The notes under the pieces are model-generated. The model was not told the DNA's origin, did no database searches, and worked only from the letters and a program-made list of their open reading frames with translations. A DNA stretch of 64,000 bases from an uncultured Prevotella sp. (GTDB lineage Bacteria > Bacteroidota > Bacteroidia > Bacteroidales > Bacteroidaceae), in the NCBI GenBank assembly GCA_945869265.1, contig CAMBOI010000002.1, positions 1 through 64,000 of the forward strand, given 5' to 3'. Below are positions 4,468 to 12,379 of this stretch, one piece after another (position 1 is the stretch's first letter; the number at the start of each line of letters is the position of its first letter). A program made the translations under genes and the position numbers.

Positions 4468-6225
4468 TTAATATTTTTTCTTTCTGAAGATTAATGTTGT
4501 AATGTTAAGACCGAACATATACTTATGAGATATATCCTCGCTCATTGCCTTCACCAGTCGGAGACCGATGCCTTGGTTGCTCTCGTCGGTTGTCTTACTA
4601 TTGTTGAAGGCAGTGGGCGAGAAGGGTTTGCCGGCATCCTTCAGTCGCACCTCCATACGGTCGGGGAAGTCGGTTATCAGTACCTCGAAGCATCCGCCGT
4701 TAACCCTGTCTGAACAATGTTTGAGGATATTGCATATCAGTTCCTCGCAGCAGAGAATGGCTCTGTTGGTCTTTTCCTCGCCCATTTCCACCAAGGTGGC
4801 GAATGCCCTCACATCGAGCAAGGCCTGTTTTACCGATTCAATGTCGTAGTTGATGCATAGTTTTGTAGACACCTCATTGGGTAGCAGTGGCAATAACAGT
4901 AAGCGGCTCCTGAGTTTGCTCCTCTTGGATAAGATAAATGTAGTGAGCATCTGTATGGCGGCGAGTATGGCCATGCCTATGGGGAACGCCCACCAAAACC
5001 AGTCCTTGTTGATAGTGGCGGCTGCAAACGGTACGGCGATGAGTGCTATGGCCTGCAGGATGTTGAACACTATTGACAGACGCTTAAATCCTAACAGGGC
5101 GTGAATCCTGGTGTTGACGTATATAATAAAATATGGTATAAGCACAAGGCTTATTATGCTCAGGTATCTATCCTCGCGCTCTACCGATTGGATGTCATAT
5201 TCTCCAAATATATTGAGGAACATGGTGGGGACGAACACCATTGCGCATGTCACGACACCCACCAACACCACCATCAGTGTATTGCCCCTGCCGAGCAGTT
5301 GGCGAAACGACGAATAGTCGCCTTCGCCCAAATACATTCCTCCCGCACTCTCGTAAATCTCGTTGATGCCCTCGTTGATCATTGTACAAAATGCCAATAT
5401 CTGAAGAGCCACTGCGATGACGAATAGCCCTGAGTCGCCATAATACTCCATCACGATATGGTTGATCAACAACGCTGTCACTCCCGACGACATCATGCCA
5501 AGCGTAAGTGGGAGTCCTTCGCTGAGGATATGCCTGAATATGGACAGGAAATTCTTGACCCTCGTAAAACCGAAACTGCACTTGCCGCTCCTGAGATAGG
5601 TAAGCAGAATGCCAAAACCGACGCACTCACTTATTATTGTGGCACAGGCTGCACCCCTTATTCCCATCCCCAAAGAGCCAATAAACAGGAAGTCAAGACC
5701 GGCATTGACGACAAGGGTTACCAACATTGATAAAGTGACACGTTGTGGATTGCCGTCGCTGTTGGCAAACAAGCATAGCACCACCATTGGAGCCTGGACA
5801 ATGAAGGCGCCAAGCATCACACTCACATAATCCCAAGTGAGTGAATAAATGTGAGGAATGTCTCTGTCGGCAAGCAAAGATATGAGATTGTCGAAGAACA
5901 AAGTGCAGATACCCACAAGTGTTAATATGATGGCAATGCTTGATATGAATGCCACCGTGAATTGCCTACTTGACGCAGAGAAGTCCTGCTTGGCAATGTC
6001 TTGTGCCGACAGGAAGCTCGCCCCCAAGGCAAAGAGCGTCATCACTGCATACATAAAACTGTCAAGCGGCATAAACAGGTTGATGGCCGACAAAGCGTCA
6101 GGCCCCAAGTACTGGCTTGCCACTATGCCGTCGGTCATTGTTCTCACTTGCTGCATTATGCTTGTAAGTATCGACACTGCGAGAAAGCTGCGGAATGTCT
6201 TGTCGATTATATAGTCTTTCTTCAT
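4468..6225 (-). CDS. MATE-family exporter fused to an RsbW-like ATPase domain
   Basis: Residues 1 to about 440 form a typical 12-helix MATE multidrug/toxin exporter (opening DKTFRSFLAVSILTSIMQQ, then TDGIVASQYLG). The last ~130 residues are a GHKL-type ATP-binding domain like anti-sigma factor kinases: an N box in CCEELICNILKH, a G1 box in VRLKDAGKPFSP and a G2 box in GIGLRLVKAM. The ATG at 6225 is preferred to the track's upstream TTG. It is the first gene of an operon with the DDAH-like and condensation genes, with a TACCTTTGC -7 element about 20 bases upstream. MATE proteins use ion gradients to export cationic small molecules; the ATPase tail may sense state or phosphorylate a partner. 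The exported substrate is unknown. Confidence 0.85.
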   Translation of the reverse strand: MKKDYIIDKTFRSFLAVSILTSIMQQVRTMTDGIVASQYLGPDALSAINLFMPLDSFMYAVMTLFALGASFLSAQDIAKQDFSASSRQFTVAFISSIAIILTLVGICTLFFDNLISLLADRDIPHIYSLTWDYVSVMLGAFIVQAPMVVLCLFANSDGNPQRVTLSMLVTLVVNAGLDFLFIGSLGMGIRGAACATIISECVGFGILLTYLRSGKCSFGFTRVKNFLSIFRHILSEGLPLTLGMMSSGVTALLINHIVMEYYGDSGLFVIAVALQILAFCTMINEGINEIYESAGGMYLGEGDYSSFRQLLGRGNTLMVVLVGVVTCAMVFVPTMFLNIFGEYDIQSVEREDRYLSIISLVLIPYFIIYVNTRIHALLGFKRLSIVFNILQAIALIAVPFAAATINKDWFWWAFPIGMAILAAIQMLTTFILSKRSKLRSRLLLLPLLPNEVSTKLCINYDIESVKQALLDVRAFATLVEMGEEKTNRAILCCEELICNILKHCSDRVNGGCFEVLITDFPDRMEVRLKDAGKPFSPTAFNNSKTTDESNQGIGLRLVKAMSEDISHKYMFGLNITTLIFRKKKY

Positions 6226-6244
6226 AATATGCAATTAATCGATT

Positions 6245-9219: not shown

Positions 9220-9238
9220 ACTTTGTGGACCACAAAGT
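9220..9238. promoter_or_regulatory. Perfect 19-bp palindrome, likely operator
   Basis: ACTTTGTGG-A-CCACAAAGT is a perfect inverted repeat around a single central base. It touches the TTG (-33) element of the promoter for the 1001-residue protein downstream, a classic repressor or activator position. The binding protein is unknown and is not evidently encoded next to it. Confidence 0.7.
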
Positions 9239-9268
9239 TGTGAACCTCGAATATTATATGTATCTTTG
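9238..9268 (+). promoter_or_regulatory. Promoter TTG-N20-TATCTTTG for the PEP-synthase-domain gene
   Basis: TTG at 9238-9240 and TATCTTTG at 9261-9268 are 20 bases apart, a full Bacteroidota promoter. The leader to ATG 9340 is about 65 bases. Confidence 0.75.
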
Positions 9269-9339: not shown

Positions 9340-12300
9340 ATGGAAACCAAGATACCGCAGGAATGGAATAAGTTTTATCTGAAGGATGTGTCGTTTGTGA
9401 ATATCATGACACGACGCATCTTCAACGTGCTGATAGTGGCAAATCCATACGACGCCTTCATGCTGGAGGACGACGGACGTGTGGACGAGAAGATATTTGA
9501 CGAGTATATGGATCTGGGATTGAGATACCCGCCCACGTTCCGACAGGTGAGTACGACGGAGGAGGCCAACGAGGTGCTGCGCAATACTGCCATCGACCTC
9601 GTGATATGTATGCCGGGTAATGCCGACAACGACGCCTTTGACGTGGCGAGACAGGTGAAGCAGGACTCACCCGACATACCGTGCGTGGTGCTGACGCCTT
9701 TCTCGCATGGTATAACGCGACGCATGCAGGACGAGGACCTCTCGATGTTCGACTACATCTTCTGCTGGCTTGGAAACACCAACCTCATCCTCTCGATAAT
9801 CAAACTGATTGAGGACAAGATGAACCTCGACCACGACATCCAGGAGGCGGGAGTGCAAATGATTCTGCTGGTGGAGGACGGTATCAGGGATTATTCGTCG
9901 ATTCTGCCCAACCTGTACAATTATATCCTGCAGCAGAGCAAGAATTTTTCGCAGGAGGCGCTCAATCCCCATGCCGCCGCACAGCGCAAGAGGGGGCGAC
10001 CGAAGGTGGTGCTGGCAAGATGCTATGACGAGGCGATTGCCATATTCGAGAAATATCACGAGAACACATTAGGAGTGATAAGCGACACGCGATTCCCTAT
10101 CCACGGCATGATGACCGACGACAGGAAGGGCATAGGATATTCTCCCGAGAAGATGGAGAAAGACCCCGAGGCAGGACTCAAACTGCTGCGCGAGATAAGG
10201 AGCAGGGACGAGTTTGTGCCGCTCATATTGCAGAGCTCGGAATCGGCAAACCGCCAGAAGGCCGAGAGGGAGCACTTCCGCTTTGTGGATAAGACATCCA
10301 AGAAGATGAGTGTTGACCTGAGGCATATACTTGAGGAGCACATGGGATTCGGCGACTTTATCTTCCGCGACCCCAACACTCATGAGGAGATAATGAGAAT
10401 AAGGTCGCTGAAGGAGTTGCAGGACAATATCTTCAAGATACCCAACGACTCGATGCTCTACCATATCTCTCGCAACCACATGAGCCGATGGCTGTGTGCA
10501 AGGGCCATCTTCCCCGTGTCGGCATTCCTGAAGCATGTGACGTGGAGAAAGCTGCAGGACGTGGATGCCCACCGACAGATTATCTTCGAGGCCATTGTGC
10601 AGTATCGCCACATGAAGAACATCGGAGTGGTGGCAGTGTTCGACCGCGGAAAGTTTGATGCCTACAGCCACTTCGCCCGTATCGGCGATGGTTCGCTCGG
10701 CGGTAAGGGTAGGGGATTGGCATTCCTCGACAATGTGATAAAGAAGCATCCGGAGCTCAACCAATTTACCGGAGTGTCGGTGAGCATACCGCGCACGGTG
10801 GTGCTCTGCACTGATATCTTCGACGAGTTTATGGACAAGAACAACCTCTATCATATTGCCCTGAGCGACGCCTCGGACGACGAGATACTGCAGCATTTCC
10901 TCAGGGCGCAGTTGCCCGACTCGCTGATTGCCGACTTCTTCACCTTCTTTGATGCGGTGAAGTCGCCGATAGCCATCCGTTCGTCGTCGCTGCTTGAGGA
11001 CAGTCATTATCAGCCTTTTGCGGGAATATATTCCACATACATGATACCCTATCGCGAGGATAAGTATGAGATGCTGAGGATGCTGGCTTGCGCCATCAAG
11101 GGCGTGTATGCATCGGTGTATTACAAGGACTCGAAGGCATATATGACTGCCACGAGCAATGTGATAGACCAAGAGAAGATGGCTGTGATACTGCAAGAGG
11201 TGGTGGGACATCAGTATGGCGACCACTACTATCCTAACTTCAGCGGTGTGCTGCGCTCTATCAATTATTACCCCATCGGCGACGAGAAGGCTGAGGAGGG
11301 TATTGCAAGTCTGGCATTGGGATTGGGAAAATATATCGTGGATGGCGGACAGACCTTGCGCGTGAGTCCGTATCATCCCCACCAGGTGCTGCAGACAAGC
11401 GAGATGGAGACTGCCTTGAGGGACACGCAGACGAGATTCTATGCCTTGGACATGACCAACGTGAGCGAGGACTTCAAGGTGGACGACGGATTTAATATCA
11501 AGAACCTGAGAGTGAAGGAGGCCGACAAGGACGGGTCGCTCAACTATATAGCATCGACCTACGACCCTTACGACCAAGTGATACGCGACGGTATATATGA
11601 GGGCGGACGCAAGATTATCTCCTTCTGCGGGGTGTTGCAGCAGGGGGTATTCCCATTGCCCGAGTTGCTGCAGATGTCGCAGTTGTTTGGTGAGCAGGAG
11701 ATGAAGCGCCCGGTGGAGATTGAGTTTGCATGTAATATCAACAACGACAAGACGGGGGAATTCTATCTGTTGCAGATTCGTCCGATTGTGGATAGCAAGC
11801 AGATGCTTGAGGAGGACCTGACGAAGATTCCCGACGAGCAATGCCTGTTGCGCTCGCACAACTCGCTCGGGCATGGTATCAGTGAGGATGTGACGGATGT
11901 GGTGTATGTGAAGGTGGATGATAATTTCACGGCAGTGAACAATCCCGATATTGCTATGGACGTGGAGAGAATCAACCGCAAGTTCCTCGACGAGGGCAAG
12001 AGCTATATACTCGTAGGACCGGGACGCTGGGGATCGAGTGACCACTGGCTTGGCATACCGGTGAAGTGGCCGCATATCTCGGCAGCCAAACTGATTGTGG
12101 AGTTGGGATTGAAGAACTATAGGGTGGATCCAAGTCAGGGAACGCACTTCTTCCAGAACCTCACTTCCTTCGGTGTGGGATATTACACCATCAATCCATA
12201 CAACAATGACGGCATCTTCCGTCAGGACATCCTCGACGCCATGCCAGCTGTGGAGGAAACGCAATACGTGCGCCACGTGAGATTCGACCATTCGATTAAG

Positions 12301-12345
12301 ATCATGATGGATGGAAAGAAACAGGAGGGAGTGGCGTTGATATAA
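9340..12345 (+). CDS. PEP/pyruvate-binding (PPDK N-domain) protein with two receiver-like domains
   Basis: Residues ~25-160 form a degenerate response-regulator receiver: the phospho-acceptor strand reads IDLVICMPG without the Asp. Residues ~172-335 form a second receiver that looks intact: LLVEDG, D249 in VISDTRFP, a Ser in LILQSSES and a Lys in FVDKTS. From ~455 to ~810 comes the ATP-grasp N-domain of PEP synthase and pyruvate phosphate dikinase (GDGSLGGKGRGLAF, AIRSSSLLEDSHYQPFAGIYST, EFYLLQIRPIVD). The C-terminal ~190 residues (GPGRWGSSDHWLG) are not the phosphohistidine swivel domain, nor is there a PEP-binding barrel, so it cannot be a full PEP synthase. A phosphotransfer or nucleotide-sensing regulator is possible. 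No DNA-binding domain seen. Confidence 0.85.
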   Translation: METKIPQEWNKFYLKDVSFVNIMTRRIFNVLIVANPYDAFMLEDDGRVDEKIFDEYMDLGLRYPPTFRQVSTTEEANEVLRNTAIDLVICMPGNADNDAFDVARQVKQDSPDIPCVVLTPFSHGITRRMQDEDLSMFDYIFCWLGNTNLILSIIKLIEDKMNLDHDIQEAGVQMILLVEDGIRDYSSILPNLYNYILQQSKNFSQEALNPHAAAQRKRGRPKVVLARCYDEAIAIFEKYHENTLGVISDTRFPIHGMMTDDRKGIGYSPEKMEKDPEAGLKLLREIRSRDEFVPLILQSSESANRQKAEREHFRFVDKTSKKMSVDLRHILEEHMGFGDFIFRDPNTHEEIMRIRSLKELQDNIFKIPNDSMLYHISRNHMSRWLCARAIFPVSAFLKHVTWRKLQDVDAHRQIIFEAIVQYRHMKNIGVVAVFDRGKFDAYSHFARIGDGSLGGKGRGLAFLDNVIKKHPELNQFTGVSVSIPRTVVLCTDIFDEFMDKNNLYHIALSDASDDEILQHFLRAQLPDSLIADFFTFFDAVKSPIAIRSSSLLEDSHYQPFAGIYSTYMIPYREDKYEMLRMLACAIKGVYASVYYKDSKAYMTATSNVIDQEKMAVILQEVVGHQYGDHYYPNFSGVLRSINYYPIGDEKAEEGIASLALGLGKYIVDGGQTLRVSPYHPHQVLQTSEMETALRDTQTRFYALDMTNVSEDFKVDDGFNIKNLRVKEADKDGSLNYIASTYDPYDQVIRDGIYEGGRKIISFCGVLQQGVFPLPELLQMSQLFGEQEMKRPVEIEFACNINNDKTGEFYLLQIRPIVDSKQMLEEDLTKIPDEQCLLRSHNSLGHGISEDVTDVVYVKVDDNFTAVNNPDIAMDVERINRKFLDEGKSYILVGPGRWGSSDHWLGIPVKWPHISAAKLIVELGLKNYRVDPSQGTHFFQNLTSFGVGYYTINPYNNDGIFRQDILDAMPAVEETQYVRHVRFDHSIKIMMDGKKQEGVALI

Positions 12346-12348
12346 AAT

Positions 12349-12379
12349 AAAAAAGCCCTGCAAATCGCAGGGCTTTTTT
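12349..12379. terminator. Bidirectional rho-independent terminator
   Basis: AAAAAA-GCCCTGC-aaatc-GCAGGGC-TTTTTT: a 7-bp perfect stem, 5-base loop and A/T runs on both sides. It lies between the plus-strand PEP-domain gene and the convergent M23 peptidase gene and can serve both. Confidence 0.9.

Follow-up and report, generated by a model that had tools for sequence, protein, structure and literature searches.

The gene at positions 9340–12345 (forward strand) of the window, a 64,000-nucleotide stretch of DNA from an uncultured Prevotella sp., raises the question of what is controlled by a protein in which two response-regulator receivers are joined to an ATP-grasp domain of the PEP synthase type. 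The 1001-aa protein was delimited from the open reading frame call, Pfam and homologues, and both flanking genes lie on the opposite strand. Full-length homologues span 98% to approximately 38% identity, indicating that this is a whole-protein family rather than a chance arrangement. A 764-aa open frame that runs antisense to the gene (10069–12363, reverse strand) is probably a codon-usage shadow. The union of receivers with a PPDK domain is already known: the combination has been named 'Bacteroides-like' (PMC5847659), and Asp-less receivers have been described as highly associated with PPDK outputs (PMC4395418). The 1001-aa protein very probably shares the architecture of the proteins in these two papers, the accessible portions of which, in contrast to the present analysis, give no function, C-terminal domain or link to glutamate dehydrogenase (GDH).

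The domain layout (all features on the forward strand) is given consistently by Pfam, an AlphaFold2 model, Foldseek and residue conservation, and the domain observation of the original prediction is therefore right. Pfam places PPDK_N (PF01326) at residues 452–829 with an E-value of 1.6e-42 (146 bits, cut-off 27) and Response_reg at residues 67–140 with a weak match below the cut-off (E 3e-4). The AlphaFold2 model (mean pLDDT 72.8) contains two receivers, a helical region, the ATP-grasp domain and a C-terminal alpha/beta domain, with both receivers forming complete (beta-alpha)5 folds at residues ~28–170 and ~172–335. In a Foldseek comparison with the PDB, the top match is HpeI, a PPDK_N-only protein (9goj, E 7e-10), followed by PleD and 3luf, whose tandem receivers match with E-values down to 2.6e-6. 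Structure prediction thus confirms that the receiver-like regions are receivers.

The two receivers differ in their acceptor sites. Receiver 1 (residues 28–165, 9421–9834) is supported by the weak Pfam match, the model, the Foldseek matches to tandem receivers and the homologues, and receiver 2 (residues 172–335, 9853–10344) by the model, Foldseek and conservation, which was scored in two sets of homologues of the same type (type A), 109 close ones and 55 drawn from a broad sample. At the acceptor position of receiver 1 (M91, 9610–9612) every one of these homologues carries Met or Thr (Trp once) instead of Asp, and the acidic pair is absent. In receiver 2, by comparison, no variation is seen at E179, D249 (10084–10086), S299 (10234–10236) or K318 (10291–10293) and a single homologue departs at D180, so that this domain combines the fold, acidic pair, Asp, Ser/Thr and Lys of a response regulator while receiver 1 has the fold without the site. 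These results bear out the earlier claims that the first receiver has lost its phospho-acceptor and that the second retains D249 together with its Ser and Lys. A helical linker domain (residues 336–440, 10345–10659), which the original prediction overlooked, lies between receiver 2 and the ATP-grasp domain. It is modelled with low confidence in part (392–430) and contains a His residue, H375, in the motif YHxxRNHxSxWLxAR that is invariant in type A.

The ATP-grasp domain (residues 452–829, 10693–11826) is assigned to the PPDK_N type from the PF01326 match, the HpeI structure match and alignment. K456, R547, E793, E795, Q812 and R814 align with ATP-site residues of PEP synthase and PPDK, and the domain thus has both the fold and the catalytic residues of the nucleotide domain of these enzymes, its K, R, E-x-E and Q-x-R positions corresponding to theirs. 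K456, R547, E795 and Q812 are retained in all three types of the family (A, B and C, described below), as is R814 with four Lys exceptions. The likeness to PEP synthase (PpsA) and PPDK extends to the start of the following domain, where a hairpin aligns with the beginning of the swivel domain, and then breaks down. Neither the PEP-utilizers domain (PF00391) nor the PEP/pyruvate barrel has a Pfam match up to E 10 in the 1001-aa protein, and the phosphohistidine motif GGxT[SC]H is absent from it; unlike PEP synthase and PPDK, the protein also carries N-terminal receivers, a helical domain and a different C-terminal domain. The chain ends 170 residues past the ATP-grasp domain. The claim that the phosphohistidine and PEP domains are missing consequently stands as far as Pfam is concerned, but the position after the ATP-grasp domain is not empty: it holds a conserved domain of 170 residues in which one His is invariant.

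This C-terminal domain (residues 832–1001, 11833–12342) has no Pfam match. Types A, B and C share the two motifs of this domain, GxGRWGSxDxxLG and S-x-G-[TS]-H-F-F, with little or no variation; the core GxGRWGS of the first (G893-x-G-R-W-G-S899, 12016–12036) and H936 (12145–12147) of the second (S932-Q-G-T-H936-F-F, 12133–12153) are invariant. The possibility that the domain is a canonical swivel was suggested by the predicted order of a strand, the S-Q-G-T-H helix and a strand, which resembles the GGxTSH region of the swivel. When the ATP-grasp and C-terminal domains were aligned together with PEP synthases by profile, they were clearly homologous (E 7e-23), and the posterior was good through the first swivel hairpin and confidence was lost beyond it; past this hairpin, a longer profile alignment placed GGRTSH of the PEP synthases against GPGRWGS and not against H936. 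Modelled in isolation, the C-terminal domain reaches a pLDDT of 90, and Foldseek finds no structure match for it in the PDB (best E 0.046, TM 0.27). The domain alone was not recognised as a swivel by hhalign (P 0.3–0.55), and a profile search of PDB sequences with it found nothing, so the assignment as a canonical swivel was dropped. Since only the first hairpin aligns and the domain alone goes unrecognised, it is named here a family-specific domain at the swivel's place. It is possibly a strongly changed descendant of the swivel domain, and H936 is a candidate acceptor or active-site His.

The same results bear on the proposal, made in the original prediction, that the protein is one half of a split dikinase whose His carrier is encoded separately, as in HpeHI or PpsAB. 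Such enzymes exist (PMC12167813), and HpeI, the ATP-grasp half of one of them and likewise an ATP-grasp unit without a canonical swivel in its chain, is the closest structure in the PDB. However, the search for a separately encoded swivel found none among the recurrent neighbours of the family, an HpeH-like partner gene was not seen, and a scan of the protein's own genome gave no hit to PF00391. The last of these absences from the assembly is not proof, because the other PPDK_N match of that genome (G000:C4, L001), a probable PPDK, is severed by a contig end. The protein further differs from HpeI/HpeH and PpsAB in having its own receivers and a conserved C-terminal domain that fills the swivel position, and the family's neighbour is GDH rather than aromatic catabolism. 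A split dikinase is considered very unlikely.

Of 248 genomes sampled across the phylum, 43 contain some match to the family. Bacteroidales and other classes of Bacteroidota both have full-length relatives, which are rare among Bacteroidia outside Bacteroidales. Type B proteins (~580 aa) are without receivers, and type C proteins (~1060 aa) have a different N-terminus that appears GAF-like by eye; some type C members carry a nucleotidyltransferase domain at the C-terminus. PPDK_N and a C-terminal NTP_transf_2 domain are joined in a single chain in the type C relatives at L113:4808–7987 and L117:7646–10834, genes that stand in GDH-linked groups, sometimes adjoining type B and type A genes. Short (~375 aa) relatives of type C also lie beside tandem type-A genes in one family of Bacteroidia (L162:6664, L164:99).

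It is the genomic neighbourhood that gives this architecture a likely partner. Of the 50 sampled Bacteroidota genomes that carry the family, 36 have one of its genes no more than 600 bp from a GDH gene, across many taxonomic families and all three subtypes, whereas chance adjacency is estimated by us at ~0.2% per gene (given ~3 GDH genes in 3300 and two neighbours for each gene). GDH genes (ELFV_dehydrog) are recurrent neighbours of types A, B and C and are found within 5 kb in 39 genomes; the second most frequent cluster, aminotransferase-like as identified by eye, reaches 11. Among the 41 pairs with an upstream GDH, 38 share the same strand, and three pairs from Bacteroidales are divergent. 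Distances within the family correlate with those within GDH (Mantel r 0.80 for all members and 0.84 for type A), a value reached by none of 2000 permutations. Pairing of paralogues with their GDHs was consistent in 21 of 21 comparisons among seven genomes with two modules, comparisons that are not independent of one another and that could also come out consistent if the linked module had been co-duplicated as a unit. Taken together, linkage, distance correlation and paralogue pairing make it very likely that the family member and GDH are functionally paired. The gene pairing shows functional association and is not proof that GDH is the substrate. The linkage is broken in the window and in approximately one quarter of the sampled genomes; each of the two GDHs encoded in the own genome has family-linked orthologues in relatives, with identities of up to 89% for one and of 76–81% for the other. 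A search for GDH-specific signature residues was given up, as no residue was found that distinguishes linked from unlinked GDHs.

The neighbours also bear on the possibility that the protein is a small-molecule dikinase in the amino-acid pathway of GDH (its substrate might be a keto acid or an amino acid), in which the C-terminal domain would double as substrate and phosphohistidine domain and the receivers would tune activity. The ATP-grasp domain is homologous to those of PEP synthase and RPH, the alignable first hairpin and the swivel-like order of strands and helix would suit such an enzyme, and so would the aminotransferase-like and peptidase-like genes that recur near the family and fit a wider role in an amino-acid pathway. 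Against this, a domain for the second substrate is not found by Pfam, a swivel is recognised neither by domain-only hhalign nor by Foldseek, and strict pairing with particular GDH paralogues suits a protein partner better; we regard a small-molecule dikinase as unlikely. The pairing with GDH would also be expected if the protein were an ATP or energy sensor devoid of transferase activity, that is, an allosteric GDH-binding subunit in which the ATP-grasp domain binds ATP and the receivers take the signal, with a role like that of GarA/OdhI or PII-type control. The lack of a recognisable acceptor domain agrees with a sensor of this kind, but a pure sensor need not retain all of the catalytic residues, and the dikinase set at positions 456, 547, 795, 812 and 814 is kept in types A, B and C while H936 is invariant. 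An energy sensor is therefore held to be improbable, to the same degree as the small-molecule dikinase.

The preferred reading is instead a receiver-gated ATP-grasp regulator of GDH, based on the domains, the intact D249 and ATP site, the invariant H936 and the genomic and evolutionary pairing with GDH. In this mechanism, a signal would act through a histidine kinase to phosphorylate D249 of receiver 2, with the Asp-less receiver 1 serving as a putative structural or dimerisation module. The state of receiver 2 would then switch the ATP-binding, dikinase-type ATP-grasp domain, and this domain together with the C-terminal domain (GRWGS, S-x-G-T-H936) would alter GDH activity, as suggested by the pairing and by the title of a 1996 report described below. 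The likeliest route, which is speculative, would be a covalent and reversible phosphoryl (or nucleotidyl) transfer to the GDH hexamer, in which H936 might serve as relay or catalytic His. That the protein acts on or with GDH is rather probable, the full explanation is evenly poised between right and wrong, and covalent modification of GDH by the protein is doubtful though credible. More tentative still, and on balance improbable, although slightly less so than the sensor or the small-molecule dikinase, is the idea that the family represents a new two-component output class, in which a receiver-controlled dikinase-type enzyme phosphorylates or otherwise modifies GDH via its C-terminal domain and H936 replaces the swivel histidine. 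If true, ammonia assimilation in Bacteroidota would be under post-translational control, and the sister forms would differ in their sensors: type C would combine a GAF-like one with a nucleotidyltransferase domain and type B would have none. The main result is a specific assignment to GDH control, which would also provide a first function for the REC-PPDK architecture, possibly with a dikinase domain acting on a protein. The original interpretation is partly supported: a regulatory tie between a phosphorelay and metabolism finds support, but the process concerned is glutamate and ammonia metabolism, which redirects the reading away from pyruvate.

A candidate for the kinase comes from three other genomes of two families, in which the type-A gene is directly followed by a HisKA_3 kinase gene, the spacing ranging from −13 to 25 bp. 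The gene order in these genomes is type-A gene, PAS/HisKA_3 kinase, LuxR-type regulator and second GDH module. This arrangement is suggestive of the adjacent kinase as the cognate one, and the neighbourhood thus supplied the candidate that had been sought.

GDH is one of the main enzymes with which Bacteroides and Prevotella, dominant in the human gut and rumen, assimilate ammonia, and reversible GDH inactivation has reportedly been described in B. fragilis. The protein would probably control the uptake or release of nitrogen by these gut bacteria. According to its title, the study of Baggio and Morrison (1996; cited in PMC4539542) concerns one or more trans-acting genes downstream of gdhA that affect GDH activity in B. 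thetaiotaomicron. A similar position is occupied by the family gene in Bacteroides-like genomes (L065, L127, L128), where it directly follows one family-I-type GDH in a tail-to-tail orientation, 80–303 bp away. In Parabacteroides distasonis (NZ_OY725790.1), gdhA is divergent from a gene annotated as a 'PEP/pyruvate-binding domain-containing protein'. As far as the title of the 1996 study goes, the family member is possibly its trans-acting factor, and the present analysis offers a concrete candidate, with residues D249, the ATP site and H936 and with pre-paired GDH partners. In the accessible part of PMC4539542, the NAD(P)H-GDH of B. fragilis appears as three spots on 2D gels, and spots of the same GI number and mass that vary in pI are taken there to suggest isoforms. 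For P. ruminicola 23, NADPH-GDH activity is given as 24.3 under ammonia excess vs 4.6 under limitation, with gdhA transcript 2.2-fold apart (PMC5552732), figures that have large error bars and are compatible with control beyond transcription.

The region upstream of the gene contains features of a promoter. The Bacteroidales −7 promoter consensus is TAnnTTTG, and a match to this element, TATCTTTG, is present at 9261–9268 (forward strand). Just upstream lies a near-perfect palindrome, CTTTGTGGACCACAAAG, at 9221–9237, which written as ACTTTGTGGACCACAAAGT occupies 9220–9238. It is altered yet still palindromic in the closest relative (L003), and is a possible operator. An operator regulon defined by this palindrome was considered and dropped, as the palindrome is present in a single copy in the own genome. 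Elsewhere in the window (4468–6234, reverse strand), Pfam identifies a MATE-type transporter (MatE, in two stretches) with a C-terminal HATPase_c_2 anti-sigma-like ATPase domain (E 2.9e-12), an unusual fusion.
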